This document shows, piece by piece, positions 2,285-25,405 of a stretch of DNA of 64,000 nucleotides; positions within the stretch are counted from its first letter, which is position 1; each line of letters opens with the position of its first letter. The translations under genes were made by a program, and so were the position numbers. The notes under the pieces are model-generated. The model saw only the letters and a list, made by a program, of their open reading frames with translations, did no database searches and had not been told where the DNA came from. The stretch is from Branchiostoma floridae (lineage: Eukaryota; Chordata; Leptocardii; Amphioxiformes; Branchiostomatidae). The stretch covers positions 15,406,154 through 15,470,153 of the forward strand of contig NC_049980.1 in the NCBI RefSeq assembly GCF_000003815.2, given 5' to 3'.

Positions 2285-5200
2285 ATGTTGGGGCCCAGCA
2301 CCGTGGTCTTCTTCACTCTTCTCGCTGCTGCGTCCGTGGAAGCATCTCACTTCAGGGGAGGGACCATCTCTTGTACACCCGACATGGACAACATGGACTT
2401 GGTAAGAGTAGTTTACAAATGAGTAGCGGCGCCTTGGTAGGCCGTTGCCGGAACCTTAACTTAATTATTCTTACTGTTCTAACAGTTATATGTCCGGGCA
2501 AATGCATAACCTCTTTAGTTAACTTTATTCCACAATCCACTCGTATCTTTGCCAAGTGTTTCAGGCATGCAGCTGAAATGTCTTTAAGTGCTATGACCTC
2601 GTTTATGTTTCGGTACACGGTGCCATTTGTGGCACATGGGGTCTATTCCGGTTTTGCTAATTCGTGTTCTAGTGAAAGATAGCCCTTGGGGAAGAAAGTA
2701 ATTAGTGTAAGCTGCTGTTTCGTGGCTGCAGGGACCAATTTTGTTTGAGACGTTGAGAGTGAAGAACTCAAGAATGGTTTGACAGATGATATTTTGCATA
2801 ATCGATAAAACAAATTCATAAATTCAATGCATTCCACCTTTCTAACTGATGAGAAGAGATATGTCTATTCATATGAATTAAGACTTCATTTGCATGATTA
2901 ATGACAAAATACTATAATTTGATAGTGGTATTAAAATGAAGGGAATTTCATACTTCAGAGTATAAGGAAGTAAGATTAATAACGGTGAATATCATGAGAC
3001 ATAAATAATGCAAATATGAAATAAGGGTATCGAAGGTATAAGGTCCTGAGATCTAAGTTGTGTTTTTTTTATCCTTTGATAGGTTCTGTTTGAACAACCA
3101 AAGATATATTTATAAACAACTTGGTGCAGGGTGAGTGTAAGTTTATTTGTATATTTTATGATTTCGAAAACCCCAATTTGTACTTAGGTCCACTGTAACT
3201 ATCGTATGGGCTGGAGGCTGTCGAGTAACGCTGGCGAGTGCGACCAGTTTGCGATAGACAACAACGTCCTGATGGGCGGAGAGGGGACCTGGGACACGCC
3301 CATTGGGAGGGTCCCTGCAAGCTTCTACTGCACGGACTTCAGCGAGCAGGAGGACTGGCAACAGGGCGTCAACTCCTTAACTGTCAACCTGCGCGATGCC
3401 AATGTAACCACGACTAATGGCACTACAGACACCTACACCATCAGGTGATCATAACTTTATTTACACTGGTAACACAAAGCCAATATAGTTTCCCTCAGAA
3501 TATCCGGAACGTGCACAACTCGCGGAAGAATGAACGTACAGGAGATTACTCATTATATCAAAAGCATCACACTGTACAAATTAGTTGAGAATCAAAATTA
3601 GTACAACTACTTTTCATGGCTTGCGTTCAAATGTATATCTAAATACCACTGCCATTGCCGGATCAAGAGAGCCAGAAATGTTTATTACATTATAAAGTGT
3701 AGTTGTTGCAGTGTAAACTCGTTTATAATAATACCTATTTCGCAATAGCTTTGACGGCTGCTGCTGGATCACTGTCATCCGCCCGGGGAACGGAACCCAC
3801 GATCCCGACTGGCAAGTCACCACCCAGTTTGACATGAGCAGGAGAGCTGACACCGGCAGGCCCAACTCCTCTCCCATCACCGCCAGCTCGGCGATATACA
3901 GGTAATTTTTAGTTGCCGAATTGAATTTAAAGATCACTTGAAAATCCAGCTAGCCCTTCATATTGGGTGGGGTTCTGGAACGTTGACCCGCGGGCTTTGA
4001 GCGCGATATGATCGAGAGAACATGTATCACTGCGGGAAATGCTATGTGGAGCTCGGACACCTTTTTTTTTTTTTTTTACCACAGATCGATCTCATAAATT
4101 TAAACATTTACAGTTACAACACTATTGAGAACCACAAGGCGGGATAAGAGACTCTGAAGTTTGTAGAACCATTTGTTGGACTGTTCCGCGCTAGAAGGGG
4201 AAATAATATTATGTTTGAAGTTCGCAGTTGAAAGAATTCTATAGTACAGTAGAAAGACAAGGCACATATTCGTTGTGTTATTTCACGGTAAGAGGTCAAC
4301 GCAAGATAAAACCACTGCGAGCATTATACAATTTACAGCATTCTGTACTAGTATGTCAAATGTGCCGTTGTGAAGCCAGTCTTTTTGTCCTTCTTATTCA
4401 AAACTTCTGACTGTCAATCTCATTGAATTCCTTTCATCTGGCCATACAGGGTCCAGAGCAGCTGTGATGATGTCATCAGGATTCCGACCGAAGATTCTGA
4501 CGGTGACACTGTGAAGTGCTACTACTCCTCGGTGTTTGCTGAATGCGGAGAAGCCTGCGATCCGCTGCCCTTCTCACAACTCAACGAGGTAAGATACGTT
4601 GAAGAGTTAGACACTGGTGGCTGGGATATGCCCACGGGTTGCTTCACAGTTCGACAACATTCTCTTGATGAATGTCGGCATCACAATAACGTTAGTTTAG
4701 TCAAACACCCTTATTCCAAACATGTGCGCGAAGGTATGGACAATGACTTAGGAATGTGGAAGCTTCTTAGGCCTATATTAGATATAACTTTCCACATTGC
4801 TTGTTGGTCGTGGTTGCATTGCACAGGTTGACTTTCCATATTTCATTGCTCTGATCCTTATGATAAAGTAAATGCATTTTGGTTATCCTGGTGTGGCGGA
4901 AACAACATCACACTTCATGCAGAACAATGCAGATTATTCTGAAAGCTTTTTGTCGGGGTATTTTATGTTTATAGTGACGATCAAACTTCTGTAATAACCC
5001 TTGTCTCAACACTACTCCAGGACACATGTGAGATCACATACAACACAACACACGGTGAACTCACCCCGGGATGGTACGCCATAGCTCTAACCATAGAGGA
5101 CTACCCTCCAGGAGCGGCCGGAACGGCAGGGTCTGGGCTCAGCCGGGTTCCTGTGCAGTTTCTGGTCAACGGTATGCGTGTACGCTTTTATGAATTAATA

Positions 5201-6483
5201 AAATTCATAACATTATATACTCGTTCCTAGATGTTCAGATCTTACCTTCTTTGGAAGGTGACTACTGGCAATGGACAGATGGACAATAGTGTGTTGGTGT
5301 AAAATGTTTGAAAATGGTGTGTAACTCATTCATAGAAACTGCTATTACACATTTGTATTTTAATTTCGATTCACTTTCCCTGTTCATCTAGCCTACACGT
5401 CCAACACCCCGTGTAGCCTGAAGCCCCAGCTGGTGGGGCGGACGCCTGAGGCCGGAGACAGGGTGGTCATACCGGCTGGAGGTGTGTACCACGCCGTGCT
5501 GGAGGCCGAGGCAGCCAGTCCAGGAGCCAGGTAGGCAATCAGCATGCTTCAGCACCTCCGTCACGGGGGTAGTGTAACCAATCGGTGTGTTTGTTTGTCC
5601 GAGGTATAAGTCCGAGGTGATGTTAACATTACATAGAGACATCCAAATAAGGTTGAAGCGGCGTAATAGGATACTTGAGGAATTGGACTTGGCTTGTATC
5701 GGGTTCAATAGTATTGTATATAGTTGAAAGTCAAAATTACTCAATGCTACACCCACACAGTAATGTCAGGTCGCTGAGGATATGCACTTAGAACTGGTCA
5801 CAACGATGTTCTGGCAACTGTGTCAGGTGTTGCAATTTTCATATAGCGTTTTAGGGGCACTTGCACATGCAATATAATGAACTTGTCAATGTACCAATAA
5901 TATGATGTGATGTATAAGATGCAGCAGTTCATACAAGATGTCACTGACTCGTACGCGTTCTTACAGCATCGTGGAGATCTCGACAGTTTCTCCACATGGG
6001 ATGATCAAGTCCGACCTCGTGACCGATCCCGACATGCCTCACCGTGCCTCCGTCAACATCACGTGGTCACCGACCCTGGCGCAACTTGGGCAGCACATCT
6101 TCTGCTTCAGAGCTCAGGACAGTAATATGTAAGATTATACATGTTCCCATTCAAGATTTTTATACCATTTCCCATAATACTTAATTGAATAATTTTCATG
6201 GATGCTTTAGATTCTTGTTATCTAAGGGGCTGCTCGGTTCGCGTCGTGATTTGTAATATAAGTGAAGATAATCAATAATCTGATAGCAACAAAAAAAAGA
6301 AATAGCAACATGACAGGAAGTATTTTGATAATCATGAGAAAACAACTTAAAATCTTAAACCTTTTATGTACTGTCGTCAGATTTGGATCAATTGCTTATA
6401 GTCAAGATTGAAAGTTGCCTTCCTTTCTCTTTAATTCAAAAGGGAGAACTCTGACCAGCGGTGCATGACGCTTGTGTACATAG
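2285..6483 (+). CDS. Copy A exons 1-8: signal peptide and SHFRG N-terminal module
   Basis: Exon 1 encodes a typical signal peptide (hydrophobic core [10 protein letters not shown], likely cut after VEA) followed by [10 protein letters not shown]. Copy B has W where copy A has C at the tenth position of this motif, so copy A may carry an unpaired cysteine. Exons 2-8 encode a cysteine-rich extracellular stretch with conserved blocks such as [46 protein letters not shown] and ISTVSP. Exon 2 of A is 27 bases longer than in B and adds a Thr/Asn-rich insert with NVT and NGT glycosylation sequons. I recognise the SHFRG(G/A)T start as recurring in predicted secreted proteins of marine invertebrates but cannot give a domain name or function. 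Phases at exon ends 1-8 are 0, 2, 2, 0, 1, 2, 2, 1. Confidence 0.85.
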
Positions 6484-9400
6484 GTAAGAGAAATCCATTT
6501 TTTTTAAATAATTTACTTGATCATAAGAAACATATCATACTCAACATAATGCACTGGCCCCTGGGCATCAGATGACAAATATCGCCTCGTAGTGTGCACC
6601 AAAAAATATATATCAGCACCCAACTCAATCTAGCATGATCCATGAGATGATGATATGATGATTTCTTGCACCCCAAGTAACTGGTATTGAATTCATATCC
6701 AATTCTTCAATTGTGGGTACTCAGAAACTTTCTTATCCTTAAGAATAAAAAAACGGTATAGTGTGAACTTGAACGCATTTCTGAGTAACTTACTTATTAC
6801 ATTGATGAAGGTTAGGCATCCAGGTAATAAGATACGCCAAAAAAGTAGTTACTTAAGCAACTGTTCCAAAGTCATATCCAGTTGCTTGAGTAACTACTTT
6901 TGGCCTAGCTTATTGTGTCAAGTTGATATTTTGTATTTCTTCCAAGGTTGGCCCCTGAACAATAAATACCAGCTTGGTAGGCAACCTTGGCTGTATGTCC
7001 ATTTCAGCCAAACCAATAAACACCAAATATATCATATTCGCTGTTTGTAGGGACCCATGATGTGGACGAGTGTATGGATAACAACGGCAACTGTTCACAT
7101 GCCTGCGTCAACACGGCTGGCTCATACCATTGTGCCTGTCCAGGGGGGATGGTGTTGAGTCAGGAGGACAACAAAGAATGTGAAGGTACCATTGCCCAAT
7201 GTATTCCTGTGTACACAGGTTTATCAGACTATTGTTGATGAAGGTTGGACATCCAGGTAAACAATGTTACTTTAGGACTTTCAGAATGACATCCATCAAT
7301 CTTCTTCAGTTATTCATATTAGAAGTTTGCAAAAAGTGTGGCAATAAAAACTATTGCCATGGCGACGGTTTAATAAGTATTTTGATTATAAATGATTGTT
7401 GTTGTAGGTTTGTTTGTTTTATTTGGATCTCCATTAGTGATACATGTAGTATCACTATTCTTCCTGGAGTCCTACAATTCATAAACATTAAATACAAAAC
7501 ATAAGCAACAAATCTTGTACAGGTATGACTGATAATCGTCGTATGTAAATGAATATGTTAAACTTGTTAAGATTGTTTCTAATTTTCGTTTGTATCCCTT
7601 CCAAGACATTGACGAATGTGCACGGAACCCAGAGCTGTGCCACGACAACGCGGAATGCATCAACACCTATGGGTCGTACATCTGCGAGTGTGACGTGGGA
7701 TATGTTGGGGATGGAACTGTGTGTAGAAGTAAGTTAGCACAGTATTGTAAGTTGTGCGAGAAATTAGTAATTCTGCATCCTCATTTACGTGTATCACGGT
7801 GTAGGTCTGCAGCGTTTTCATCGTGTATGTGCGTGCTTTTGTGTTGTGTGATACCCGTGTGAAGTATATAACGTTAAGTTACTTATTAAAAATTTTTCTT
7901 CTGCAACAGTTGGCATTTTTAAGGACGACGAGCAGACAACCGTATACTGTTAAACCTTGCGATACTTTTACGGTTTAAGATACATTTGCACTGAGATGTC
8001 ATATATCTCGTGTGTTTGAAGCGTATGGGGTGTTTTACAACATGAGTAAAGTGGACATGTGTACATGTTCTTCAGTCGACGTGGACGAATGTGCCAATGG
8101 GACTCATGGATGCCACGAGCATGCGCACTGCATAGACCTGCCGGGATCACATGAACTGCATCTGTGACGAGGGGTTTGTGGGGGATGGTGAAGTTTGCAC
8201 AGGTTAGAGTACATCCTATCAAAGCCGTTTTATAACAGTTTCTTCTTCATGTACCTTCTTCATAAGAAACACTCCACGTTCCATGCAGATTCTTTATCTC
8301 ATCCATTCATAATTGTTTCCTTCTCAATTGTTTTGTTTCCCCACTTAAACAATTTGGAGCTATTGTCTTGAATTAACACGAACATAAGGTCCATACTTTT
8401 GTCTTTAATAAATATGACTGTTTTCCCTGGTCTATGGTTACAGCCTGAATAACATTTATTTATTGATATAGATAATAATCTAACAACGTATCGGCTTTAA
8501 GCGATCCTTGCATCTTCTAAACTTCATGTGTGTTATCTTCTTCCTTGAACTGCAGATGTTAACGAGTGTGCTGAAGGTGGCCACATGTGTCCCACAAACG
8601 GAACCTGCATCAACACTGCAGGCTCCTACACCTGTAAGTGTGACCCCGGGCACGCCTGGGACGGCAACGCCTGCTCAGGTGAGAACGTCTATGAGTCAGA
8701 CTGCCACCCGAACCGTAATGTTTTCAGGCCTCGTGAAGGGATAATTTTACACAAGAGTTTCGAGCACGAACAAGCAAACTTGCTAGATTAGAATATGTAA
8801 AACAACAGTGTTGATGTGGCAGATCTATTACGTGAGATTGTAAAAGACTACTTGCCGCAGTATTTGGATTTCTATATCTTTGAAATTTTATGACTAGTCA
8901 TTTGTGTTCGTTAATGGTATAGAAATGGCGTTTCCCCTTCAATAATCTATATGTACTTGTAATTTGTATGAGTAATCATTGCTCAATAGAATTCAAACTG
9001 TCACAGATAACAAATGACACACTATGCAGAAAAAAAGATATTCTATAGCAGCCCAAGTAATGTATGTTGTAGTTTTCACATTTGTACCACACATCCAAAC
9101 ATCCTGGCATGTATGATGGATGTTATATGACTTTTTACACACACCTTGTAGACTTCGACGAGTGCTCTGTTGACAACGGGAAATGTGAAGACATCTGCAT
9201 CAACACGGTAGGAGGTCATCAGTGCGCATGCTCCAACAGCCTTCTTGTACTCGCCGAGGATGGGAGAGGATGTACACGTAAGCAACAATAATGATATGTG
9301 GGTCACCAGTGTTTAATGGCAGTAATGATGATAATAGATTTCATCAGTCTTTCATTCCTTTTTTACCATTGTTTCTTTTTCTTGTATGATTTACATCAAT

Positions 9401-12400
9401 TGCTCCAGGAAAAAATTCTAAACTAAACCTTAAGCCCCAGTCACACCCAAGGGAAATTATTCCGCTGATGAGTCTGTGAGCTTTCGGCAGTAAAACGCCC
9501 GGTGTTCATCCGCCCGTTCAAGATTTTTAGGAATCGGTTGACGTTCGCGGGTCAATAAGCCCCGATCAATGTGAAAGAGGAAATTTTCAGGCGAAAGGTA
9601 TGCTGGACTCTTGGGCGATTTTGAGACTCAGTGACTTTCTGGCGATCAAGAAACTGTACACCTGAAGCTTATCGGCTGTGTCACACATGAAACACTTAAC
9701 ATGCAGCAAATACAATGACGGAATCATAAACAAACGCCATACAATAATGAAAACAACCACTGCGTTCCAGTCGTTGGAGCGGCCACAACCTGCACCAATG
9801 AGAACATGGAGCTGGCCCTGCCGGAGGAAGAACTCGCGCTTGTCGACACAAACGACCTTCACTGGGCTCCTGACTCGACCTGCAGGGCCAGGTTCAACGG
9901 TACCCATCACCTGCTACGGACTGGTCTGTACCAGTGCGGCACAACGGTGAGCTGGATAAACTGTGATAGTACTAGTGTTTGTTTATTGTTCATTGGCAAT
10001 TGTTTGGATGTACATACATACCAGTAAAATTCTACGATATCAAATTCAAGACAAATGCAAAGGAGCACAATCGTTTTTTTTTTCTTGGGCCCTTCCTCAC
10101 TCGCTATTATAATTTATAGTCAATAGCGTCAATGTCGAAATAGTCATTTGGAAATCAACTAAATAAAACATGAGACAAAATGCAGCAACATTGCTTTCAA
10201 AAAAATAATTGAAGGATACGCTTGAAAACGGAAGTCATCGGACTATCCGACTAATGAAATACAAACTTTAAGATGAAACGGAGACCCCTTTTTAGACGTT
10301 AAAGACAACTAAATACAAAATCAAAAGTGATGAGTTATTACAATCATCAGTACAAACGCTGGTGGGGTCTTATGATGTATCTATGAACGTGCCCCAAATT
10401 CCCTTAATCAGACTAAGGATGGCAAAAATCAGTGGTCATTTAGAAAGGAGGACCTTTGTACTGTTTTTGTACGGCATACTGTGCACAATATTTCAATACA
10501 AATTGCATATGAACAACTATGTGAAACTGACCTTTGACCTGCATTGTTATCAGGTAACCTTTGACTCGACTTACGTCATCTTCACCAACTTGATCAGCCT
10601 CATCAACATCCACAATGCAACAGGCATTATCACTCGAGACGATGACATCATCATTTACTCCAAGTACGTATCAGGGGCAACACGTGTCAGTGTCTCTTTT
10701 CACTAGACGACTGGGCTGAAAACACTGTCTATTGCCTAAAACACGTGCCCCATATTTGGAAATAATCAGTTCAGCACCAAGGAGAGGTACTGACAATAAA
10801 CCTGGCATGAAGAGGCTCCTTGTGTAGGAAGATTTTTAGTTTGCTCATTTGTTTGAACGTTTTACTTAATCAAAACTGACTGCCGCTATCCTAAATCACA
10901 GCTTCTGCACAACTTTAATTTCACATTCATATTCGGTGTCCAAATACTCTAAAACGCTCCTACATCTACATCTACATCTACATAGTACTGGGCAATGCCC
11001 CTCGCGGGACTTTGTGCCCAGGATGCCCTAGCAAGCCGGTGGTGGTCAGACAAAATAGGGAAGTGAAAAACGAAAACTAGCTTGTTTTCATATTTTAATA
11101 AAACTTGGCTGAAAACACTGCTTAATGCCTAAAACACGCACCCCGTAGTTACCGATCATCAGTTCAGCACCAAGGAGAGGTCCTGTCAAGCGATGCACAA
11201 GCCTTTAAATATCGCAGTGATCTTCATAACGGACGTATGAAACAGTTCTTAGGTGAAAGAAAATGTGAGCGTGAAGAGGACACATGACCACAGAAGCACC
11301 TGTGGCATTGTCACAAGCATTAAGAATCCTGTCTATAGTCGCTTGTTGTCCACATAGACCAGATTTCTTGCCCTCTCTGTAGTGGTCCTTTTAGGTAGTT
11401 TTGACTGTTAATATTATCTAACGCAATATAAATTTTCAGGTGCAAGTATGAGCGTGAAGAGGACGTGACTGCACAGTTCATGCCCATCCCTGGTGGACTA
11501 GAGTTCACTGAGGTTGGTTTCGGCACCCTGTCCATCCGTCTGGACATGTTCCACTCACAACATTATCTCCAACCGTACACAGTGCCTGAATACCCTGTAC
11601 ACAAGAGCCTCAGAGACAACCTGTACTTCCAGCTCCATGTCGACGGTCACAACCAGCGTCTGTCCATACTCGCTCTGAACTGCAAGGCTACCATGTCACC
11701 GAACAAGGACGATGCACTGCAGTACGCACTGATTGATAATGGGTAGGTTGATATTGTAGCAATCCATTGTCATACTGGTTTTCTACTCAACATGCTTCTG
11801 CATTTCCTTTATTATTTTCCTTTATCATATGTAGTTAAGATGAATGCTTGCTTGTTTGTTTGTTTGTTAGAAATAGGGAGTATCATTATCCGCGTGGTCA
11901 TCATCTGCTTAGTACTAGTTAAAGCTCAAATCGGCCTGTAGGCCGCTTTTCATTGAGGTCTTGAGGGAAGAGGCAAGGGTCAGACAACGTATATAACGGA
12001 GATGCAGTGATGAAACGAGATGTGCCATATAATAGGTCAAATTCTTCTGTGCATGACCGTTCCTTAGCCTGAATAAATTACATTCCTAGCGCCCACCCGA
12101 TAGCGCGCGGGACTCACCAGCCCCCTTGGGACCACGTTTTTAGCCCCTGCCAGTGAGAGATGATGTAACCAAGGAGATTTAACCTCCGTGATGTAACACA
12201 GGTTAGACCACTCCGTAATAGTTCTCATGATCCCTTTTCTCTCCAAAAGATGCGCTGTAGATGACACCCTGCAGTTCTACAACAGTTACAACCTGGCAAC
12301 TCAGCAGTTCGGGTTCGAGGCTTTCCGCTTCATCCGGGAACTCAGGACTGTGTACATTCACTGTGAGGTGGAGGTGTGCGACGCCGCTGACCCGGGGTCA

Positions 12401-13324
12401 CGATGTGCGCAGGTCAGGACCTCTTCAACTATATTCTGCTGTAGTAGAAGTTCCGAAAGTTAGAGTGCATTAAAGAGATTCAAAGCAAATAATGTTGTCA
12501 AGGTTTTCTAGATGTTATTGCTTTTTCACCTATGTGATTTGCTTCTACGCATATTATCTGTAAAAAAAGACTTAAAGATGAAAACTTTGCAATCGCAACA
12601 ACGTATGATTGTGAAAATTTTCAATCAAATCTACTTTAAGACACTTTCTCCTCCTTCTTGTAAATGCAGGGATGTACTGGTGTTCGCCGCAAGAGGGAGC
12701 TCTCTGACATGACAGGAAGACACACCATCTACCAGGGCCCTATCATTCTGGACGAAGCTGAGAGCGGTAAAGAATTTTACTTTTTGCCGTGGCTCACATG
12801 TGATTGTATAATTGGCCTCCTTCAGTAAACATCCATTTTTATTTATTCAAATCTACAACTTTGACAAATGATATGTAGTTTACTTGACAGACAAGTAACA
12901 CTGTATCTATTAGAGCTTACATTTATCTCTTAACGGGAAGGCGACACGTAGGGACTAGGCATATTCGTCCTGTGAAGAAAGTTACCGCCATGTCAAAATA
13001 TGACATGCGAGACCCAGAATATATTTACGTTTTTTTCGACTCATTGTCATTCATGGTAATCGTATTTCTCTGATAAACTAACGACAGAATGATCTGATCA
13101 TGATTTAAGGCTGCTATATATATGTATTTTTCTTTCCTTTTTGTCTTCTTTTGACAGAGAGCAACGTCGGGTCGCTCAATACCGGGGTACTGGCTGCAGT
13201 GGTCAGCGTCGGCTCACTTGTCACAGTGATCGCACTGGCTGTAGTTGTGGTTGCTGTCAGAGTGAGGCGCTCTAAGAAGAAGCGTTCTGGGTATCAGCCG
13301 GTCCAGACTGACTGTGATGACTGA
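2285..13324 (+). CDS. EGF/ZP-domain type I membrane protein, tandem copy A (19 exons, one frameshift)
   Basis: Coding exons: 2285-2401, 3188-3444, 3749-3901, 4450-4588, 5021-5171, 5392-5530, 5967-6128, 6443-6483, 7051-7185, 7606-7728, 8076-8202, 8556-8678, 9152-9277, 9771-9946, 10554-10663, 11440-11742, 12250-12412, 12670-12766, 13158-13324. All introns are GT-AG. Every junction agrees in phase and matches copy B, which is the main evidence for the model. Ignoring one extra base in exon 11, the product is 935 residues: signal peptide 1-20, SHFRG module to 386, five EGF domains 387-597, ZP domain about 598-850, RRKR at 854-857, transmembrane helix 890-914 and a 21-residue tail with YQPV. As sequenced, the frame breaks near 8153 and stops at TGA 8165-8167, giving 502 residues. 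By family the intact protein should be a cell-surface or shed, ZP-polymerising matrix protein; its ligand is unknown. The start is the ATG that leads directly into the signal peptide. Exon prediction alone supports the model; transcripts were not seen. Confidence 0.88.
6795..6910. repeat. Hairpin-forming repeat in intron 8 of copy A
   Basis: Inverted arms lie at 6836-6863 and 6879-6904 around a 15-base loop. The arms pair except for two extra A residues and one mismatch. The flank GATGAAGGTTAGGCATCCAG (6803-6822) recurs with one or two changes at 7237-7256 in intron 9, so a family member sits on each side of EGF exon 9. This is probably a dispersed MITE-like or retroposon-derived repeat. Confidence 0.6.
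7051..9277 (+). CDS. Copy A exons 9-13: five calcium-binding-type EGF domains
   Basis: Each exon is one EGF unit with phase 1 at both ends (lengths 135, 123, 127, 123, 126). Four units open with the calcium-binding signature (DVDEC, DIDEC, DVDEC, DVNEC) and the fifth with DFDEC. The hydroxylation-type core CINT/CVNT followed by G-S-Y-x-C is present in units 1, 2 and 4. In unit 5 it reads [10 protein letters not shown], so the usual Gly-Ser-Tyr is replaced. Only exon 11 (8076-8202) is not a multiple of three. Against copy B it has one additional base at about 8153-8155, after PGSH and just before the fifth cysteine, so the last part of that EGF is out of frame. Skipping this symmetric exon would restore the reading frame and leave four EGF units. 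Confidence 0.88.
8153..8167 (+). other. Frameshift in copy A exon 11 and resulting stop
   Basis: The upstream frame reads PGSH then E-L-H-L-stop, with TGA at 8165-8167. Removing one base at 8153-8155 restores a cysteine at the expected place and then C-D-E-G-F-V-G-D-G to the splice donor, as in copy B. Exon length 127 rather than 126 independently shows the extra base. It may be a real mutation, a polymorphism or an assembly error. Confidence 0.85.
9431..9600. repeat. Possible MITE-like repeat in intron 13 of copy A
   Basis: The stretch starts with TAAGCCCCAGTCACACC, which resembles the terminal sequence of the foldback element at 18127-18248 (TAAGCCT...GTCAC). It is followed by a GC-richer block unlike the surrounding intron. 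I could not find a convincing right end, so extent and class are uncertain. Confidence 0.3.
9771..12766 (+). CDS. Copy A exons 14-18: ZP domain and furin-type cleavage site
   Basis: Exons 14-17 encode a ZP-type polymerisation domain. The N-terminal half runs from VGAATTC through ELALPEEEL to [15 protein letters not shown]. The C-terminal half contains [36 protein letters not shown] and the closing run [13 protein letters not shown]...SRCAQGC. Exon 18 carries RRKR followed by ELSD (12685-12696), the consensus furin site expected after a ZP domain. It is followed by IYQGPIIL, a plausible external hydrophobic patch. In known ZP proteins, cleavage here releases the ectodomain and lets it polymerise. 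Phases at exon ends 14-18 are 0, 2, 2, 0, 1. Confidence 0.85.
10713..11187. repeat. Imperfect direct repeats around a retroposon-like tail in intron 15
   Basis: Two segments of about 82 bases (10713-10794 and 11106-11187) are about four-fifths identical by eye. Both end in TCAGCACCAAGGAGAGG plus a CTG(A/T)C end. Between them, 10961-10984 holds a run of the hexamer ACATCT that ends at a GC-rich block (about 10985-11045). Read on the minus strand this looks like a retroposon 3' end with a (GATGTA)n tail. The repeat ends match the arms of the palindrome at 44933-45029. Confidence 0.5.
12064..12190. repeat. Possible dispersed repeat upstream of exon 17 of copy A
   Basis: This is a GC-rich block with short inverted matches (AACCAAGGAG and TAACCTCC) in an otherwise AT-rich intron. 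A related end sequence, GTGTAACACAGGTTA, recurs near 22819-22833 in copy B. The class cannot be decided from the sequence alone. Confidence 0.25.
13158..13324 (+). CDS. Copy A exon 19: transmembrane helix and cytoplasmic tail
   Basis: The exon encodes a 25-residue hydrophobic helix ([19 protein letters not shown] core, residues 890-914), a basic stop-transfer stretch RVRRSKKKR and the tail [16 protein letters not shown] fits the YxxPhi adaptor-binding pattern. The basic RVRRS sequence is shared with copy B (KVRRS), but the tail ends differ. The stop is TGA at 13322-13324. Confidence 0.85.
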
Positions 13325-14740: not shown

Positions 14741-14743
14741 CTT

Positions 14744-14858
14744 ATATATATAAAGTCCGTTTCGATGGACTTTGCCGCTTTACATTTGCAATGCTAATCA
14801 GACCTGGAAACAAGGTACCAAAAACAAGTCCGCCTGTTAGTCGTCGGTCACAAACCAG
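14744..14858 (+). promoter_or_regulatory. Candidate TATA promoter and non-coding first exon of copy B
   Basis: TATATATAAAG at 14744-14754 is a good TATA box. A start about 30 bases downstream would give a short exon ending ACCAG|GTAGGT at 14858/14859. Copy B's first coding exon is preceded by an acceptor (ACACGCAG, ending 16081) one base before its ATG (16083), so an upstream exon is expected. The exon contains an ATG at 14791 that would be in frame with the main ATG after this splice. It would place 23 residues before the signal peptide, so translation from it seems less likely. This is inferred from signals only. Confidence 0.4.
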
Positions 14859-16081
14859 GTAGGTGCTTTTGCATTCGCAAAGGAAAATAAAGTTCCTTTT
14901 CTTCTTCAGCATTTGATAATGTAAGTAATGTTAGCGTTTATGGCAGAACCTTAAGTTAGAATTTGAACATTTAAAAGATAGTATACCTTTTGATTTTTTT
15001 CTCCCTGTGCCTTGATTATGATGATCGATGACATTGGAAATTCCAAAAGTGAACACTTTCTAATCAGCTCTTGTCTAAAACATCTTTGTTGAATGATTCC
15101 GGAGCTCATCAGGTTTCCTAAATTATTTCAAGACGAAAAGGTTTAATAATCACACCCACATAGCATATAAAGCTTTTCTCAGCCTAAGCTAAACACTATC
15201 TGCCTGTCATCGACTGGACTTAAATAAACACCCTGATGAAAAAGAAATATCGTAACTAGTGTTGAAAACTGTAACTATCATTCAAAACGCCGTCATCTTT
15301 GTGTGATGTAGATAAATTCGCATGTTTGATATTGTATACGTCACATGGTCTGACAAAGTCTGAAATAAAACATTGTAGTGAAATAGTGCACAGCAGAAAA
15401 CCATTGCTATTTCACAAAGCAATGTTAATCTCCAGCGCTTTTCAAATGAGGAATAGTGCGTGGTCGTTTGTTTGAAGAAAGAAAACATGCTGAAGGTGTT
15501 ATTTAAAGTCGGGTTCCCTTTAATGTTCAAGCTCAGAAAAGAACCCCCTACTTGTGTCTGATCGAAGGGGTGAAGATCAGGGACTTCATGACTTCACCGG
15601 GTAAAGATCGAAAGGTGTGCCACAATGGCAGTACAGTCACTCATGAGTCACGAGATCGGTCTTTAACCCCAACATAGATTTGCCATTACAAGTCCTCAAA
15701 TACGTTCAGGCAGTAGTGGAAAGATATTGATCAAAAAGCAACAAGTCAGACATGAAGTGGGAAAAATAATTTGTCAGAAAAGTCTACTTGAAGTGATTTG
15801 TGCTGTTGATTGTCAGCCAGTCCCTGTGTCCAAGGGTCCCACTCGCTGGCATTCTTTATGACACAAAAAATAATGGCACATACGAAGGGTGACCAATACG
15901 TTCTCAACCTCACCCAGAAATAAGATATACAAGTTGTGCCATGATTATACATGATTTTTGTTACCATGGTCATTATTTAACGAAGGGCCTGGGCCATATT
16001 GGTCGTATATTCAACGTTTAAGTCCACTAGATATGTTTCATGTGTCAGCTTGTAACGAGTTTTCTTCATACTCACACGCAG
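14859..16081. other. Presumed 5' UTR intron of copy B
   Basis: If the donor at 14859 and the acceptor ending at 16081 are used, this is a 1.2-kb intron. No coding sequence or clear repeat was recognised in it. Confidence 0.35.
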
Positions 16082-16082
16082 A

Positions 16083-19000
16083 ATGCCATCTGTGGTTAGA
16101 TACAGTGTCTGGACATTGTTGGTCCTCCTCGGGACCGTCTCAGTGGAAGGATCTCATTTTCGCGGGGCAACCTTCTCCTGGAAACCGATTCCAAACGACC
16201 CGGACTTGGTAAGAAAAAGTCTCCCTCTAGTATCTACAGTCAGTTGATATCATATCAACCCTATATAGTTATATTCTATCAAAACTGTATTTTCACTATC
16301 ATTTGAGTTTCATTAGACATCTTTTAGAAAAGCTTTGCTATGTTAAGTGAGTTACATTTTCTGACGGTTTTGTTGAAAACCAAGCGGCCACCACCCTTAC
16401 AAAATGTAATGCCACTGGTTTTATAACAGACTCATTTTTTCATCGAATGAGTTGAAATTTGGCACAAAGGTACAAGAATATATCCTCTTGAGATTGAAAT
16501 ATCTCAATTTGTTGTTCAATTTTTTTATGAGTGACTGAGTTGATTTCAAGATGACCACACCCTTGTTATTCCGTCGGAAGGAATTAACGTGCAATTGATA
16601 ATGTACTTGAATCACTTGTAGCTATTGTAAGAAACTAAAATTGCACATGTATAAAGTTGCATTTCTGTATTATAATGCCAGTTCACCAGCTAGTTCGCCA
16701 GTAATTAAAAACGAGGTATGTGGGGATATCAATTAAATTTACAGATGGTGGTTTCAAATTGTAATATTTTCAAAGTATTGCAGTCTGAAACCAGCGTCTG
16801 TCGACTTGATATTCCTAAATTTTAGATACAACGGATATAGGTAACCCCGCGGATAAAGGTGAAGAATCGTTACGTTCTGTCTAGATGTCTATTTATGTTT
16901 ACAGGATATTTGCTAATGAAAAAGTGTAGTACTTTTCATACCTCTCACTGGCACGCAAAAATCAATACTAGTATGTTATTGAAATAACCTTAATTTGTTC
17001 AGATCCAGTGTAACTTTCGTATGAGTTGGAGGAGGTCTAGTAGCGAGGGTGGAAGTTGCGACCAGACGACAATCAGTGACAATCGCCTGATCGGAGGTGG
17101 CAACTGGGACACACCCGAAGGCTCGCTTCCCGCTGACTACTACTGTACTGACTTCAGTGTACAGGAGGACTGGTCACAGGGAACCAACTCCATGAATGTC
17201 TCTATGCGAGGAAACACTGTCACCGATGTAAGGTGAGGTCACATTGGATGGCGCTCTGAGCTTAATTCAAAGATGCGGCAAAGGGAACATAGAGAAACAG
17301 ATGCGAACACTCATAACATCGTGCAAAAACAACACTCTGTCGCCAGAGGTTAACCTCCGTCACAGAGCAATAACTAAATTTAGTTATATCATGGTTGCAT
17401 ATCCCAGGCAAAAGCATAATGCACTGTACTACTTACTATGTAGAGTGTATTTCGCCCTAATATATTGCAGTCTGGATGATACAGAATAAATTAGTTCACA
17501 ACCTAACATTCCTTGTCATGCCGTTCAGCTTTGACGGTTGCTGTTGGATCACTGTTCAACGTCCTAACGGAGGAACCCACGACCCTGATTGGAATTTGGT
17601 CTCTCATGTTGACTTATCCGTCAGACCTGACACCGGCCGACCTAACTCCTCCCCAATCTCCGCCAGCTCGGCTATATACAGGTGCGAATTGCAGCACGTA
17701 TCATGTCCTAATCGTTGACAATATTTAAGTCAACGTCCAATGTTCCTATTTGATGTATGCAAATTGTTTTTTCGACGACACTTGAAGCTGTGTTTAAAGT
17801 TCATTGGGGATTATTTACGTTATATTGTCCATAAACATTACAGTAAAATCTCCAGCGGCGGTTTTTCGATTCCGTCAATCTACAAGTATCTACATATTAG
17901 AATTACAATGTTCATAATGTAAACCCTTTCCTACATATAAAGTTAAAAAATTCACATGTAATTGTCTGTTAAAACTATTTCGTCAAGTTCATTTAATAAA
18001 ATAGTTTTTCTTTGGATTCTTCAAAACAGTGAATTCCGTATGACATAGCAGAAAAATTAATATTTGACTTACAAAGAGTAACGTTACATTTAGCTTTGTC
18101 TAATGAATGTGACCATGGCATGACCGTAAGCCTTCGTCACAAATCAAGAACTGAGTCGGCCAGCTCCAAATGGCAATTTTGAAATTTGGTGAGCTCCAGC
18201 CGATCTAAAAATTCGACCGGAGTTCGCTGGAATTGTGACACAGGCTTAATTACGTTGTTATGTTGTCAAGGGTACAGATCAGCTGTGACACCGTGATCCG
18301 GATTCCGTGGGAAGATCCGGACGGAGACATCGTGAAGTGTCGGTACGCTTCGGTTTTTGGCGAGTGTGGGGAGGCTTGTGATCCACTTCCGTTTTCTGTT
18401 CTCGATGAGGTAATACATATTCAAACCAGTAAGATCATAAATGAAAGAAAAACTGCTTAATATGTGAAAGTTAAGGGCCTGTGGAGATAGTTAAGGCGTA
18501 TTCAGCAACACTGATGTGATATCTAACGATGACTACAGGAAGTCCAGATTGGGTCATTTTAACACTCATCGAACATTGTAGGCTGTGAAAGCAAGCGGAC
18601 TCACAAACTGCAGAGTACTGCACTACATTGCCTTAAGGCGACATCGACAGTAAGAGAACCACCATAACCAAGTAATTATATTTTGTAACTTGAACGTGAA
18701 GGTGTGACACTGTCTAATGTGTAGGACAAGTGCGAGATCTCATACAGGACATCCCAGGGCAGCCTGAGGCCGGGATGGTACGCTGTAGCCTTAACGCTAG
18801 AGGACTATCCATCCGGGTCCAATACCATTGCTGGATCGGGGCTGAGTCGTGTGCCTCTGCAGTTCCTAGTCGATGGTGAACATTATTTGAACCACTTTTA
18901 TTTCAATTAATCATCAAAGGCAAACAAGATTAATTGATTATTTTTCCCAGATCAGACTGAGTATGCCTGAGCCTCTGGAATCACATGTTGTAAAAGCAGT

Positions 19001-19876
19001 CTACAGATTCCTGATGATTTTCCTTCAAGTTGGTACTTCAAACAGTTATTGGATCCGACATAAACTAAATAAACCGTAAGCATTTATTTGCCATTGTTTT
19101 ACAGCTTACACCTCCAACAACCTGTGCAACATGAAACCAGTTCTGACTGGCCGAACCCCCCAAGACAGGGACAGAGTCCTTGTTCCTGGTGGGGGAACCT
19201 ACCATGCAGTCCTGGAGGCAGAATCTCCCAACCCTGCTGTTAGGTAAGATAGATTTCCTGGAAAGGATAGATGTGTAACTTTGATGTTGTGGGAGAATGG
19301 TGTGGAATGTCCTATTTGTAAGCAATGTTTGAAAATACATGTATTACAATTTAAAACCACTGTACATGACTTGAAATTCATCAATACCATTTTTAAAAAC
19401 ATCGGATGCAAGTTATCTGCGGATAAAGGCGAACTAGAGTTAATGTTACATGTCATCATTCAAAACTTTGTGAATTCTTTCAAGTATTGCAGAGATCTCA
19501 ACCGTTTCTCCACTTGGGATGATTAAGTCAGCCCTAATAACCACTCCGGACAATCCCCGTCGTGCACATGTCAACATCACATGGACACCTACCGAGGCAC
19601 AGGTTGGCCAACATGTTTTCTGCTTCCTGGCACAGGATTCCAATAGGTAAGATGGGTGTTAAAATGTAGGAATTCTGTGATATGCTTCTTTCACAAGATC
19701 TCTTTTCAATGTTATTGCATTTTGATGTAAATTTGCATTTTGATGATATTGCATTTAATGTAGTTATGATATATACAATCTACCTACTTTCTAGCATTTG
19801 TTGATATTTCAAAAATATTGTTCCTCCAACTAAAGGATCAACTCTGACCAGCGCTGCATCACACTTGTCTATGATG
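16083..19876 (+). CDS. Copy B exons 1-8: signal peptide and SHFRG N-terminal module
   Basis: Exon 1 gives a signal peptide with core [16 protein letters not shown], then [12 protein letters not shown]. The motif tryptophan is present here but replaced by cysteine in copy A. Exons 2-8 align with copy A through [39 protein letters not shown] and [13 protein letters not shown]. For exon 7 the frame requires the acceptor TTTCAAG ending at 19484, giving S-I-A-E-I-S as against S-I-V-E-I-S in A. A stronger-looking TTGCAG eight bases downstream (ending 19492) would shift the frame. Confidence 0.85.
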
Positions 19877-22800
19877 GTGAGCAATGATTTAAAATTCTTT
19901 TAGGCCACAAAAAAGTACATCATGAAGGTAAAATGTTACATTAAGAGTGCGCAATTTCCAGTACCAACCATTTCAAAGCTATGTCATAGCTATCTTCCAA
20001 AATAATGTTTTCTTTTCTCTCTATACATTCATGTATGAGCTACATGCATGTTTCTACCCAACAGGAACACCTGATGTGGATGAGTGCCTGGTGAACAATG
20101 GTGGCTGCTCTCATGACTGTGTCAACACGGATGGATCGTACCACTGCATGTGCCCAGTTGGGAGGCTGCTGAACCCCCTGGACAACAAGCAGTGTGATGG
20201 TACATTGTAGATCACGTTATCTATCCTAGGGTTACAGGATGCTGCAAATATCCAATATCAATTACTAGTATCAATGGCACTGCATGTGAGATTTAAGGGA
20301 ACTCTCGTTCTTTAGGGAAAAAAACAAGACTGTTTGGTGCTGAGACAATTGAAACAGTAAATTTTACCCTTGTGGTATGATTCCAATGTTAGTATGGATA
20401 CTAATGTCAAACATGAACAATGCATCTGGACATTCATTTCAATCCCTTGTTCTTTCTTTGTTTTGAACAGATGTTAATGAGTGTGCATTTGGTCCAGACC
20501 TCTGCCATGGCAACGCCACCTGTATCAACACTCCTGGTTCCTACATCTGTCAGTGTAACTCTGGCTATGCAGGAAATGGCACAGTGTGTACGAGTAAGGA
20601 ACAAAACAGTACTTTGACAAATGATATTTAGACTAGGTAATCAACATGCAAAACGATCAGTTTCCCCCCTTTCTTTGCAGATGATGCTTTTGAAATTTGA
20701 GAGCAAACTTTGACCCCATTTATAACAGACTTCGCAAATCACCCAGGCAATGGATGGATTCCAATTCTGGTGGATCTGGCTTCCAGAATCGTGATCAATC
20801 CCATACCATATTGAATGATGTAGCCTGGTGTAAACAGGGTCTTGGATGAATCCGATGCAGATTCTATTTGATTTTACGTCATTTCAATCAATTATGAGTA
20901 AATTTTGTAGATGTACTCACATGTATTTTATCAATAACGTTATGCACATTGTTAAGTCAGATATTGGTACAGTCTGGCATTGTCAACATTGTTGTATTTT
21001 TCAGACATCAATGAATGTGCAGTCGGCACCCATGGATGTCACAACAATGCTCAATGTGTTGACCTGCCTGGATCACATGACTGCATATGTGAACTTGGAT
21101 ATGTGGGAGATGGACGTCTGTGCACAGGTGAGTACAACATATGACACATCCTATCCCACATCCTGTTCCGATATCCAGTAATTTGTTAGGGTTAGGGATT
21201 AGAGTTACTAAGTTGGAGATTGTTGCAAACGAGGAGTATAACCACACAAGATACTAGTGAATTGCATTTGAACAAAATTTGCCACTGCTGCATTGTTTCT
21301 ATTTTCGATCTACCTGTAGTAAATGCTAACAGGACATACTTTGACTAGGATGAATTTGAAAGGCATGAAAACTGTTCATCCAGTTTGAAACCAGTATTGC
21401 TGAAACATTTTCATTCTCTTAGATGTTTCATTGTTTTATTTTCCAGATGTGAACGAATGTGCTGAGGACAAGGGTGACATGTGTAACACAAATGCAACTT
21501 GTGTCAACACTCCTGGGTCCTACAGGTGTGACTGTAACCATGGATACAAAGGTGATGGGACCACTTGCACAGGTCAGTGGCCCCCTTAAACCACTCCTAT
21601 CGTGTTTGTCTGGCAATCTATTGTTTGTTTTTGCGTGAGTAAAGCCTTTAGGGATAACATGCCAGTTTTGTACAGAAAGTACAAGCTACAAAGGCCAGGC
21701 TGTAATTGTTCTACTCACAACAAGATGGAGCCCTCCTCTTTTCAATAAGGAGCTCTCCTTGAACAATTCGGGCTTTCAGCATTACAAAGTCAGAGGACAT
21801 CCCTAATTGAAGCTACTCATTTTCACCTGAGTCAAGTGAGGGATTGGTTTTAAGTGCCCAAGGACAAAACATTGGGGGCTCCTAAGTATTGGAACCCAGA
21901 ACCTTTAGATTATTATGAATATGAAGTCAATAACTTTAACCACAAGATCACCTTGCCATGTTATTTCTGTGGCCCATCAAATCAGCTATTCTGTGTTAGA
22001 TGGAATCCAAAGATGTTATATCCAACTGTTATATCACTGGTCTGCAGATATTGATGAATGTGCCACGGATAACGGCATGTGCGAGGATATTTGCATCAAC
22101 ACAGCTGGGAGCTACATGTGCGCATGCTCCAATGGTCTCCTCATGCTGGCAGAGGATGGAAGAGGCTGCACATGTAAGAGCCATAACTAGAGTTCTGCGA
22201 CATCATCTCCATGAAATAGATTTTATGCAAATAACTTACTCATTTGCAAAATTTATGCATGGCGATGAATACTTCATGGAGGTAATATGGTTTGGGCATA
22301 ACAATTAAGCAATTTTATATGATGTCTTGAAGTATGCAGGCTTTCAGGCCAATCTCTGTTTTATCATTTTTTTGGAACTTCAGATGCTTCTTAATGAAGT
22401 ACCAATGTGGTATTTTGACTCCTTAGTTGTTGGTGCATCAACGACTTGCGCTAATGAGTACATGGAACTGGCCCTGCCTGCAAACAAACTGGCAATAGTC
22501 AACACCAGCAACCTGCACTGCGACCCCTGACGCACATGTATGGCCTCATTTCATGGCACACACCATCTGCTGCGCACTGGTCTGTATGAGTGTGGCACAA
22601 AGGTAAATTATAACGTTACCTGACCAAACCTCGCTTCTAAAAGTCCTTCCACTGGTCTGGCCCCTGAATGGTTTCCACAGAGACAGAGAATTGTGAGCTC
22701 CTTTTGAACTGATTTCAAGATTGATAAAGAATCCTGACCTATTAGTGGTTCTAGTTAGAGGTGCATAGCCAAAAGGTCTTGGAGAGTAGGCCCTATCAGC

Positions 22801-25405
22801 TTCCACAGCATGGTGTTGTGTAACACAGGTTAAAAGGCAATCAGGTCCAGGTTCAGATACTGTAAATGCAGATGAAATGTTCATGGTTTTCGTGGTGACG
22901 GCTTCACCAAGAACTCAAAACCACTGCAAAAATGTTCTGTCTTTTCCCAACCCTCTCTGTGTCTATATTATAAACACTACATGCACATTGTACATTCTAT
23001 ACATGTACGTTGTATAGTATCATGGCGTGTCAGAGGCACTTGTTATATTGTGAAGCCTGCCTTGGGCAGCCTTGGCTGTATTTCTCTCTATATATACAGT
23101 AGTGTTTAATTTTATGGACATTAATTTTGAATGCAATTTGTATGGGGTAGATTATGACAAATCCAGTGTGCACATGACAGATATACCTTGACGTTTCTGA
23201 GAGATAACACTACATCTCCAAATGTATCTTTTGCAGGTAACCTTTGACCCAAAGTACGTCATCTTCTCCAACCTTGTCAGCCTTTACAACATCCACAAGG
23301 CCACAAGAACCATCAGTCGGGATGATGATATTATCATGCATTCTACGTAAGTAACAAGCATGTTGTTTTTCAGCTCCTTTTCAGGTGGTTTGATTTGATT
23401 TTGGTGCTGTTTTGATAACATTTATTCATTCATAAAGTATATCAGACACTGTGCAGTCATTTGGAGTATAACGTTACCTACATTCAGATTTCTTTATGGT
23501 CGCACATAAGGAAATTTGTGTTGTGTTCCTAAGGCTTTACATTTAGAGCTTGTTTCATAACATGATACATGTACATAACAATACAAGGTTAAGTTAAATT
23601 TCATAATGTTATGCATCCTGACATTTCAAGAACCACCTTTCAACACGAATGTTGCTTCATTGCAGCTGCAAGTATGAACGTGATCAGGATGTCACCGCAC
23701 GGTTCATGCCTATCCCAAGTGGACTGGAGTTCCACGAAGTCGGCTTTGGGAAGCTCTCCATCCACCTGGACATCTTCCACACACGCAATTACCTACAGTC
23801 CTACACCCGATCTGAATACCCCATCCACAAAAAGCTCAAGGACATGGTGTTCTTACAGCTTCAGGTTCAAGGTCATGACCAGCTCTTGTCTGTTCTTGGG
23901 CTGAACTGCAAAGCCACAATGTCACCTGACAAAAATGACTCCCTCAACTATCCATTGCTTCAAGATGGGTAAGAATGATATTTCTGTGCATTACATTTGG
24001 AAAACAAACAGAAATGCTTTCAGGATATCAAGAGCTACATGGAAAAAAGTATGAAAAAACAGTTGGTAAATGATATATTTTCTAAGAACTGTTGACAAAG
24101 ACAAGTGTTGACAAAAACGTATAAAATTAAGTGAAAAGGCTTAAAACTATTATCTGCTGCTAAAATGTTGCTCCTTCCTGTGACTGTAATGTTAGATGTG
24201 GTGCAGACAGCACAATTCAGATGTTCAGTAGCAACAAACCAGATGTTGAACAGTTTGGGTTCGAAGCCTTCCGCTTCATACGGGAACTCAAGACAGTGTA
24301 CATCCACTGTGAGGTGGAAGTGTGTGAGGCTGCGGATACTGGGTCCCGGTGTGCACAGGTCAGGATCATTTATGCCTGTATCTTAAAGATACAGCCTACA
24401 GAGTATTTCCATGGGTGCAGATCACATAAATTGTTTGCCAATAACAGCCACAAAACAGGTAAAATTATAGAGCTTAACACATTTTTATATGTATGAACAA
24501 CCTTTTGAAGTTATATTTTTCTGTCACATGATCTAAGCCAGATGCGTTTTTGTACTTACTAATTCCAGTGGAATGTTCAATCACTTGATTATTCATGATG
24601 ATGACATTTATCATGATTAGAGCAACCATTATGATGGAAACACCACGATGATTGTAAATCTGAAATGTAAGAGTTCGGTAACATTGAAATGTTAGAGTTC
24701 CATGACATACTATAAATAAATAATGTTATCCTGGCAGGGTTGTCGTAGCGCCCCTGGACGCCGCAGGAGGGAGCTGTCACACAAGTCGGACATGACAGGG
24801 CTGCACTCCATCTACCAGGGCCCCATTGTTCTTGATGACAGCACCTATAAAGGTTTGGTATATGTTCATTGAAGTTTGCGACTGTTCAATTTCACTTGAA
24901 TGATGTCACTGATGTTACCACCCTAAAGGAGGAGATTTCTTCATACAAAATTGCACGGAATGGCCTGTGTCAGGTCATCCTTTCACAATACCGTTTTAAA
25001 ATTCAATACAAATAAATTACAGATATTCCACACAAACAAACAAACAAACAAGCAATCAAGCATTCTTGGTACAAGGAAACCAAGACAAATGATTCCTATT
25101 TTGTAAATGATTGTCTGACAATGACGTCAAGTGGACCTGAATAAAAATATGTGGCAAAATATGATTTCCACGAATTCCCATCAAATTTCTTAAATAGACT
25201 TTTACCTCATTTTCAAACAGAGCACCAAGTTGACATCTCTGGTGGAAGCACTCTTCCTGTGGCAACCATCACTGTTTCTGTTGTGGCAGTACTAGTAGTG
25301 GCCCTCACTGCAGTTCTGGTGGTCATCAAAGTGAGGCGCTCTCGTCACAACCTTCTTGGTTACAGCTACAGTTACAAACAGCTCTCCACCATGTATGGTG
25401 ACTAA
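16083..25405 (+). CDS. EGF/ZP-domain type I membrane protein, tandem copy B (19 exons, in-frame TGA)
   Basis: Coding exons: 16083-16208, 17003-17232, 17529-17681, 18271-18409, 18725-18875, 19105-19243, 19485-19646, 19836-19876, 20065-20199, 20471-20593, 21005-21127, 21447-21572, 22048-22173, 22427-22602, 23237-23346, 23666-23968, 24196-24358, 24738-24852, 25221-25405. Order, phases and 13 of 19 exon lengths equal copy A, so this is a recent-to-moderate tandem duplication. The full frame is 941 codons: signal peptide about 1-23, SHFRG module to 380, five EGF domains 381-591, ZP domain from 592, RRRR at 850-853, transmembrane helix about 892-916 and a tail with YKQL. An in-frame TGA at 22528-22530 (codon 626) would end the product just inside the ZP domain, leaving a secreted SHFRG-EGF protein or provoking mRNA decay. 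The role of the intact family is probably cell-surface or matrix adhesion; this is inference from domains. Confidence 0.88.
18127..18248. mobile_element. MITE-like foldback element in intron 3 of copy B
   Basis: Terminal inverted repeats TAAGCCTTCGTCAC (left) and GTGACACAGGCTTA (right) bound a 122-bp element. The interior is also partly palindromic (GGCCAGCTCCAAAT against ATTTGGTGAGCTCCAGCC). It is non-coding and lies about 20 bases upstream of exon 4. It is probably a non-autonomous DNA transposon; no target-site duplication was confirmed. Confidence 0.65.
20065..22173 (+). CDS. Copy B exons 9-13: five calcium-binding-type EGF domains
   Basis: Five symmetric phase-1 exons (135, 123, 123, 126, 126) each encode one EGF unit. 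They begin DVDEC, DVNEC, DINEC, DVNEC and DIDEC, and all are intact. Unit 3 reads [16 protein letters not shown] and is the reference that shows the extra base in copy A. Units 1, 2, 4 and 5 have the C(I/V)NT-x-GSY pattern linked with Asn/Asp hydroxylation; unit 3 has [10 protein letters not shown] instead. Confidence 0.9.
22427..24852 (+). CDS. Copy B exons 14-18: ZP domain with in-frame TGA, then furin-type site
   Basis: The residues match copy A exon by exon (176, 110, 303, 163 bases identical in length; exon 18 is 115 against 97). In exon 14 the sequence H-C-D-P-stop-R-T-C aligns with H-W-A-P-D-S-T-C in copy A, with no length change, so the TGA is a clean in-frame stop. Everything downstream remains open and well conserved ([40 protein letters not shown]). 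Exon 18 encodes RRRR followed by ELSH (24759-24770), the expected cleavage site. Exon 14 cannot be skipped without a frameshift, because its phases differ (1 and 0). Confidence 0.85.
22528..22530 (+). other. Premature TGA in copy B exon 14
   Basis: The codon context is GAC CCC TGA CGC ACA TGT. Two simple origins fit. One is a CGA-to-TGA transition at a CpG. The other is a pair of opposite one-base changes, since GAC CCT GAC CGC ACA would read D-P-D-R-T and match copy A better at the aspartate. TGA followed by C is a comparatively leaky stop, but no further readthrough signal was recognised. Confidence 0.85.
22858..22940. mobile_element. Partial MITE of the ACTGTAAATGCA family (copy 1)
   Basis: It starts TACTGTAAATGCAGA and continues with the same GTTC-TGGTTTT-CGTGGTGA...CAC-C-AA-AACT-AAAACCACTGC pattern as the full element at 48114-48319. 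The right half is missing. It lies in intron 14 of copy B. Confidence 0.6.
25221..25405 (+). CDS. Copy B exon 19: transmembrane helix and cytoplasmic tail
   Basis: The exon encodes a hydrophobic helix (residues about 892-916, core [20 protein letters not shown]), a basic KVRRSRH stop-transfer stretch and a tyrosine-rich tail, [19 protein letters not shown] matches YxxPhi. The tail is only distantly like copy A's, so cytoplasmic behaviour may differ. The stop is TAA at 25403-25405. Confidence 0.85.

Follow-up and report, generated by a model that had tools for sequence, protein, structure and literature searches.

The window, a stretch of 64,000 nucleotides of the Branchiostoma floridae genome (C2:15406154-15470153; the genome searched comprises 513 Mb in 431 contigs), carries two adjacent genes of 19 exons each (Table 1). 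We rebuilt both models exon by exon and placed exon ends by hand at GT..AG sites; that all 36 introns are canonical is therefore no independent test of the models. A sequence-only reading had described a tandem pair here with 13 exon lengths in common, and the rebuilt models bear this out at both loci. Indeed, 13 of the 19 exons are identical in length between the genes, and the differences in the other six are multiples of three, exon 11 excepted. The products share 64.8% amino-acid identity over 921 codons, so chance resemblance is not in question, and the genes are separated by a dS of about 1.8 with a dN/dS of about 0.13. Twelve of the 14 DNA matches between them fall on exons, the remaining two being short, inverted and intronic. 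Gene 1 and gene 2 are thus an old tandem duplication. Unmerged haplotypes of a single locus, which the sequence-only reading had named as a possible refutation, would account for the adjacent position and the common exon pattern but for nothing else; because dS is about 1.8 and the DNA matches lie mostly on exons, and with protein identity at 64.8%, we rejected this explanation and consider it vanishingly improbable.

Table 1. Features of the gene pair (positions in the window) and of related places elsewhere in the genome.
Feature	Position	Strand	Basis or remark
Gene 1, 19 exons	2285..13324	+	
Gene 1 exons 1-8, hydrophobic leader then SHFRG head, ~369 aa, 14 Cys	2285..6483	+	Corresponding exons in paralogues
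Gene 1 exons 9-13, calcium-binding EGF repeats 1-5, each in an exon of its own	7051..9277	+	Pfam (first three); DxDEC-type motifs in all five
Gene 1 exon 11 (EGF 3), net one-base frame shift at ~8150-8157	8076..8202	+	Frame closes soon after
Gene 1 exons 14-17, ZP module with ten cysteines arranged 4 + 6	9771..12412	+	Motif counts, alignment with gene 2
Gene 1 exon 18, RRKR furin-type site then IYQGPIIL	12670..12766	+	By reading
Gene 1 exon 19, membrane helix, then a short basic tail containing YQPV	13158..13324	+	By reading
Gene 2, 19 exons	16083..25405	+	
Gene 2 exons 1-8, hydrophobic leader then SHFRG head, ~360 aa, 13 Cys	16083..19876	+	Exon model, Pfam on parts
Gene 2 exons 9-13, calcium-binding EGF repeats 1-5, each in a phase 1-1 exon of its own	20065..22173	+	Pfam
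Gene 2 exons 14-17, ZP module	22427..24358	+	ZP-N and ZP-C above Pfam cut-off past the stop
Gene 2 exon 14 (ZP-N), in-frame TGA at 22528-22530	22427..22602	+	Read from sequence
Gene 2 exon 18, RRRR furin-type site then IYQGPIVL	24738..24852	+	By reading
Gene 2 exon 19, membrane helix, then a tail containing YKQL	25221..25405	+	By reading
Head, extra domain, vWA, EGF, vWD + C8, FN3-like, ZP, further EGF, SEA-like, helix	C2 13.47 Mb		vWA and vWD + C8 by Pfam
Layout like C2 13.47 Mb	C16 1.80 Mb		By eye; vWA not seen
Head, extra domain, ~8 EGF, FN3, ZP, furin-type site, helix	C6 7.03 Mb		FN3 by Pfam
Head, extra domain, C-type-lectin-like	C6 3.67 Mb		Lectin-like part by eye
Head, extra domain, many EGF, then REJ-like	C4 5.69 Mb		REJ-like part by eye
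vWA upstream of ZP	C9 2.20 Mb		Pfam
TSP1 upstream of ZP	C16 5.30 Mb		Pfam
CBM14 upstream of ZP	C5 15.95 Mb		Pfam
TSP1 upstream of ZP	C16 13.30 Mb		By eye
Cadherin repeats upstream of ZP	C3 0.13 Mb		By eye
LamG-like upstream of ZP	C9 2.24 Mb		By eye

The domain order previously read from this DNA, namely an SHFRG module (hereafter the head), five calcium-binding EGF (cbEGF) units, a ZP domain, a furin site, a membrane helix and a YxxPhi tail, was supported. EGF_CA of Pfam matched gene 2 in five stretches and gene 1, up to its frame break (see below), in three; past that break, the EGF and ZP parts of gene 1 were identified by alignment with gene 2 and by motif counts. Both genes have a ten-cysteine ZP module (ZP-N plus ZP-C, 4 + 6 cysteines), recognised by Pfam in gene 2 and by its ten cysteines in gene 1. 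In gene 2 the joints between head and EGF and between EGF and ZP are both phase 1. A furin-type site, a QGPI(I/V)L patch and a membrane anchor follow in this order in both genes by reading, with cleavage predicted, and we take the IYQGPIIL of gene 1 to be a candidate external hydrophobic patch. Both tails carry a YxxPhi motif, and neither contains an NPXY motif by reading. Pfam matched neither vWA nor LDLa in the scanned pieces of gene 2 or in gene 1 before the break, and no single Pfam entry was found that spans all parts of the architecture.

Each gene is interrupted once in the assembly, and neither interruption had been reported previously, so that the earlier description stands for the gene pair and its domains but was incomplete. 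In gene 1, exon 11 measures 127 nt against 123 nt in gene 2, a net frame shift; the claim that all phases are shared therefore holds if both breaks are set aside, but not as written. In gene 2, a stop codon within ZP-N lies three codons past a residue that is Cys here, the one extra Cys of this ZP module, and Trp in related cassettes. These breaks may reflect assembly error, null alleles or young pseudogenes, each of which fits. Were both genes dying pseudogenes, or null alleles in the sequenced animal, conservation would speak of past function only; a frame shift in one gene and a stop codon in the other are what such decay would leave, and the DNA around the gene 1 break is single copy in the assembly, with no second copy. 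However, there is a single lesion in the roughly 940 codons of either gene, and dN/dS stays low, at 0.133 before the gene 1 break, 0.138 after it and 0.186 after the gene 2 stop. Moreover, the frame of head exon 3 is also broken in the assembly of the C6 3.67 Mb paralogue described below (L019, positions 55-200), which makes assembly error as likely as real lesions. We therefore regard decay as possible but rather unlikely; both reading frames may work in living animals.

Two further elements of the window deserve mention. On the reverse strand, long membrane-protein coding segments occupy 51147-54188, with a Cadherin_3 match (4.4e-15) at 53352-53948 and another segment resembling a helix and cytoplasmic tail; this membrane protein is presumably CSPG4-like. 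At 25994-26453, an exact 85-bp direct repeat (25994-26078 and 26369-26453) surrounds about 290 bp whose end is AACT-rich and in which boxes resembling a tRNA promoter can be made out by eye; ARAGORN found no tRNA there. This element may be a SINE whose target duplication is unusually long.

The N-terminal module had been called unnamed, and this description is accurate as far as direct Pfam assignment goes. In both genes, a hydrophobic leader (by reading; a putative signal peptide) immediately precedes SHFRG. We cut the heads into N, second and third parts and scanned these against Pfam, a check that had been proposed for the translation of exons 1-8. The N part of gene 1 matched SIBA-E_N at 20.0 bits, its best direct score and below the cut-off of 28.1, and the third part of gene 2 matched Ig_SIBA-E_3rd at 16.9 bits, below the cut-off of 27. 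The N part of gene 2 alone had no Pfam match, and no SIBA domain was matched in the second parts of either gene or in the third part of gene 1. Across seven heads of the genome, SIBA-E_N and Ig_SIBA-E_3rd were each matched in one and the generic Big_9 in three. NCBIfam gave no match to either window head, a PDB sequence search with a two-row head profile found nothing, and the same search with a seven-row profile returned six weak matches, all with E of 0.063 or worse.

A link to the Sib family emerged in bacteria. A DNA pattern for HFRYGTISW had three matches, one in a fitting protein of a Woeseia MAG (L029, listed again at the same place as L035) and two in unrelated frames, and none in viral contigs. 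The seven-row head alignment yielded 27 pattern stretches in prokaryote genome contigs and 49 in viral contigs, none of which was confirmed. The layout of L029 resembles that of the head, with a leader, an NHFRYG motif and a similar segment order; its predicted fold, modelled alone, was uninformative (mean pLDDT 31.1). In the Woeseia genome SIBA-E_N matched once and weakly (9.9 bits, E 1.6); 3 of 14 control genomes also gave weak matches (E up to 10), all of them below the cut-off. Among 398 genomes of the same phylum, SIBA-E_N was found at E up to 0.01 in three and over the cut-off in one, the genome that encodes the protein L032; this genome was not recovered when the Woeseia head, as a protein query against the 398, matched itself alone. 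In two other bacterial phyla, SIBA-E_N was matched in 0 of 84 and 0 of 299 genomes, counts which do not show its absence there since no control match was obtained in that search either.

The bacterial protein L032 begins with a hydrophobic leader followed by SHFRGGLISW. It passes the SIBA-E_N cut-off with 35.4 bits and, unlike any window head, matches Ig_SIBA-E_2nd, at 19.1 bits and thus below the cut-off of 27.8. Against the lancelet head profile, hhalign gave 95.8% over 249 columns from column 1 for L032, and 94.4% over 202 columns for L029, with the motif outside the alignment. The corresponding scores were 67.5 for L032 and 61.3 for L029; shuffling each target 100 times gave no more than 20.2 and 23.2, respectively, and 19 decoy frames no more than 22.1. 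The best probabilities were 1.7% among the shuffles and 1.8% among the decoys. HMMER concurred, with E of 4.4e-8 (L032) and 7.8e-8 (L029) and a next best value of 0.2 among 116 frames and 116 reversals. Because L032 both exceeds the cut-off of SIBA-E_N and aligns over 249 columns with the head profile, the SHFRG head seems to be distantly related, by way of a bacterial intermediate, to SIBA-E_N and to the Ig-like domains that accompany it, with direct assignments all below threshold. To that extent the module is no longer unnamed.

The head could instead be a generic run of bacterial-type Ig domains, its SHFRG and Sib likeness being convergent or too weak for kinship. Some heads have weak matches to Big_9 and to He_PIG, a generic Ig family that is also the strongest Pfam match of L032 (38.4 bits); the sub-threshold direct SIBA-E_N scores and the position of the motif in L029 point the same way. 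However, the L032 alignment starts at the SHFRG motif, runs collinearly from there into the third domain and scores far above the shuffled and decoy controls, and the SIBA-E_N match in Woeseia, weak by itself, begins inside the NHFRYG motif. We consequently give a generic origin little credence and treat the head as probably of Sib type.

This head is not confined to the window. A genome search with one head gave at least 18 exon-level matches in six places, corresponding to at least seven head genes, at least five of them besides the window pair. The layouts in Table 1 assume that the segments of one place belong to one gene. The score for coding segments was learned from gene 2 plus exons 1-10 of gene 1, and nine of the segments so found, together with one segment of the window, were checked against Pfam. 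The partners of the head vary among vWA, EGF, vWD, lectin-like, REJ-like and ZP domains. Head exons 2-8 are alignable at C2 13.47, C16 1.80 and C6 7.03 Mb, exons 3-7 at C6 3.67 Mb and fewer at C4 5.69 Mb. Exon ends correspond among the paralogues except for C2 exon 5, which is longer and whose end was not found, and C4 exon 2, which is incomplete; exon 8 is 41 nt in both window genes and, by hand count, in the three paralogues with both ends seen. No exon for the extra domain was seen in the window pair, the extra domain at C4 5.69 Mb has no Pfam match, and the stretches that follow the ZP at C2 13.47 and C16 1.80 contain no NPxY.

Several of these paralogues have peculiarities of their own. 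At C2 13.47 Mb (L009), head exon 5 contains a repeat encoding WYPWWRTTRGWRWWTTEPSTSAPATTPAPTTESTT units, and the intron past head exon 3 seems to begin with GC instead of GT. At C4 5.69-5.72 Mb (L021, L022, L037), a head, a long EGF array and a REJ/polycystin-like region may together form an SHFRG-headed polycystin-1-like gene (by eye). The helix of the ZP paralogue at C6 7.03 Mb (L016) is glycine-rich (GVAAGTIGGLAG, GxxxG), unlike that of the window pair; the Sib helix is reported to be glycine-rich in the portions of the literature available.

The ZP cassette has a different set of relatives. Six places where other coding segments lie upstream (Table 1) have ZP cassettes that share 56-62% identity with the window ZPs, against only 31-37% for the three other head genes whose ZP could be read. 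In a tree of 11 ZPs, the rows being the head genes and the six places, chosen from the upper part of the 90 ZP matches listed, those three split from the eight rows that include the window pair with support of 100/99. The label 'has a head' takes two changes on this tree and the well-supported branches alone force one, three of the eight inner branches being well supported and one row being long. Since head and ZP cassette differ in their nearest relatives, our data suggest that the window pair is a product of exon shuffling; alternatively, an ancestral head-ZP gene may have had its heads swapped later. Exon shuffling is described as fastest, or exceptional, in lancelets in the accessible part of PMC4284660. 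As a separate observation, ZP exons 14 and 16 are 87-97% identical in DNA among places on C3 (L025), C5 (L026) and C16 (L027 and L028), where N-terminal parts are mostly unlike and few stretches of intron can be aligned at the cut-off used for the exons, a pattern possibly due to exon-wise gene conversion or young shuffling.

Taken together, we favour, with moderate confidence, the reading that each gene encodes, or recently encoded, an exon-shuffled type I glycoprotein with a Sib-type head, a cbEGF stalk and a ZP-furin-helix cassette. This reading draws on gene structure, domain order, the age of the duplication and the constraint on it, the head paralogues, the discordant relatives of head and ZP and the likeness to L032; cleavage, polymerisation, ligand, tissue and working reading frames are its presumed parts. 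The protein would combine two mobile parts, a Sib-type adhesion head (the SHFRG N-domain and two Ig-like domains) and the ZP-furin-helix cassette, linked by five cbEGF repeats as a calcium-stiffened stalk. The precursor would be secreted and then held in the membrane by its anchor, and a furin-type protease may cleave at RRKR or RRRR, releasing the QGPI patch so that the ZP modules could polymerise into filaments in the manner of uromodulin and egg-coat ZP proteins. Filaments or uncut surface molecules would thereby display many Sib-type heads gripping a substrate, a cell or microbes, while the YxxPhi tail might send uncut protein back to endosomes. Polymerisation is the known behaviour of ZP modules that have a cleavable site and a patch (see also the consulted part of PMC13361971). 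Sib receptors act in adhesion and bind talin through NPXY, according to excerpts of PMC12686525 and PMC9197732; as the window tails are without NPXY, talin coupling of that type is unlikely. The display of adhesive heads on filaments or membrane is our best guess at the function of the pair.

Gamete-coat proteins had been named among the proteins that combine ZP and EGF domains; were the window pair of this kind, the ZP cassette would form the egg envelope and the head would recognise sperm. EGF and ZP domains frequently occur together in urochordate egg coats, but the five lancelet egg-coat ZP proteins identified by proteomics lack an EGF domain (both from the available portion of PMC3543715), and ZP proteins act in kidney and ear too, according to the part of PMC13361971 consulted. 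Such a role is therefore not supported, and we think a gamete coat improbable. Orthology of the window genes to the BbZP egg-coat proteins was rejected because domain content differs, EGF being present and LDLa and vWA unmatched in the scanned pieces.

To conclude, adhesive display by a shuffled, Sib-headed protein remains our preferred reading of the pair. SibA is called an amoebozoan-specific adhesion receptor in the accessible text of a 2022 review (PMC9453864), and a literature search with partial coverage, at the level of titles and the starts of abstracts, found no description of an SHFRG or Sib head in animals. Whether the Sib head also exists in a chordate, shuffled into a family of varied combinations, with no fewer than seven genes in six places, that includes a Sib-like head-vWA gene and probably filament-forming ZP versions, is to our mind evenly balanced. 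If so, animals would keep a second adhesion system beside integrins, kin to the talin-linked one of amoebae and possibly exchanged with bacteria, and, with the head shared by lancelets and rare bacteria, how the SibA receptor arose and spread could be tested in animals. The family also illustrates how lancelet surface proteins are assembled from varied N-terminal parts and a common ZP cassette.

Several known systems resemble the pair in part. In uromodulin and UMOD-like ZP proteins, EGF repeats are followed by a ten-cysteine ZP module, a cleavage site and a hydrophobic patch, as in the window pair; uromodulin is not known to have an SHFRG head. UMOD is GPI-anchored, however, in the account of PMC13361971 as far as it was available, whereas the window pair is helix-anchored. 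BbZP1-5 share the ZP module, and three of them have a furin site and one a membrane helix, but LDLa and vWA occur in four of the five and EGF in none, as given in the consulted sections of PMC3543715. The bacterial L029 and L032 have the hydrophobic leader, the SHFR[GY]-type motif and a similar segment order, although neither EGF nor ZP was matched by Pfam in their scanned parts and SIBA-E_N passed the cut-off in 1 of 398, 0 of 84 and 0 of 299 genomes. Compared with Dictyostelium Sib, the window genes have EGF and ZP in place of vWA and a Cys-rich region, no NPXY tail, and direct Pfam scores below cut-off. Nevertheless, SibA-SibE (SIBA-E_N, Ig_SIBA-E_2nd, Ig_SIBA-E_3rd) are type I membrane proteins with probably the same head, an N domain followed by Ig-like domains, and the vWA that Sib ('similar to integrin beta') carries in its ectodomain likewise lies past the head in the lancelet gene at C2 13.47 Mb.
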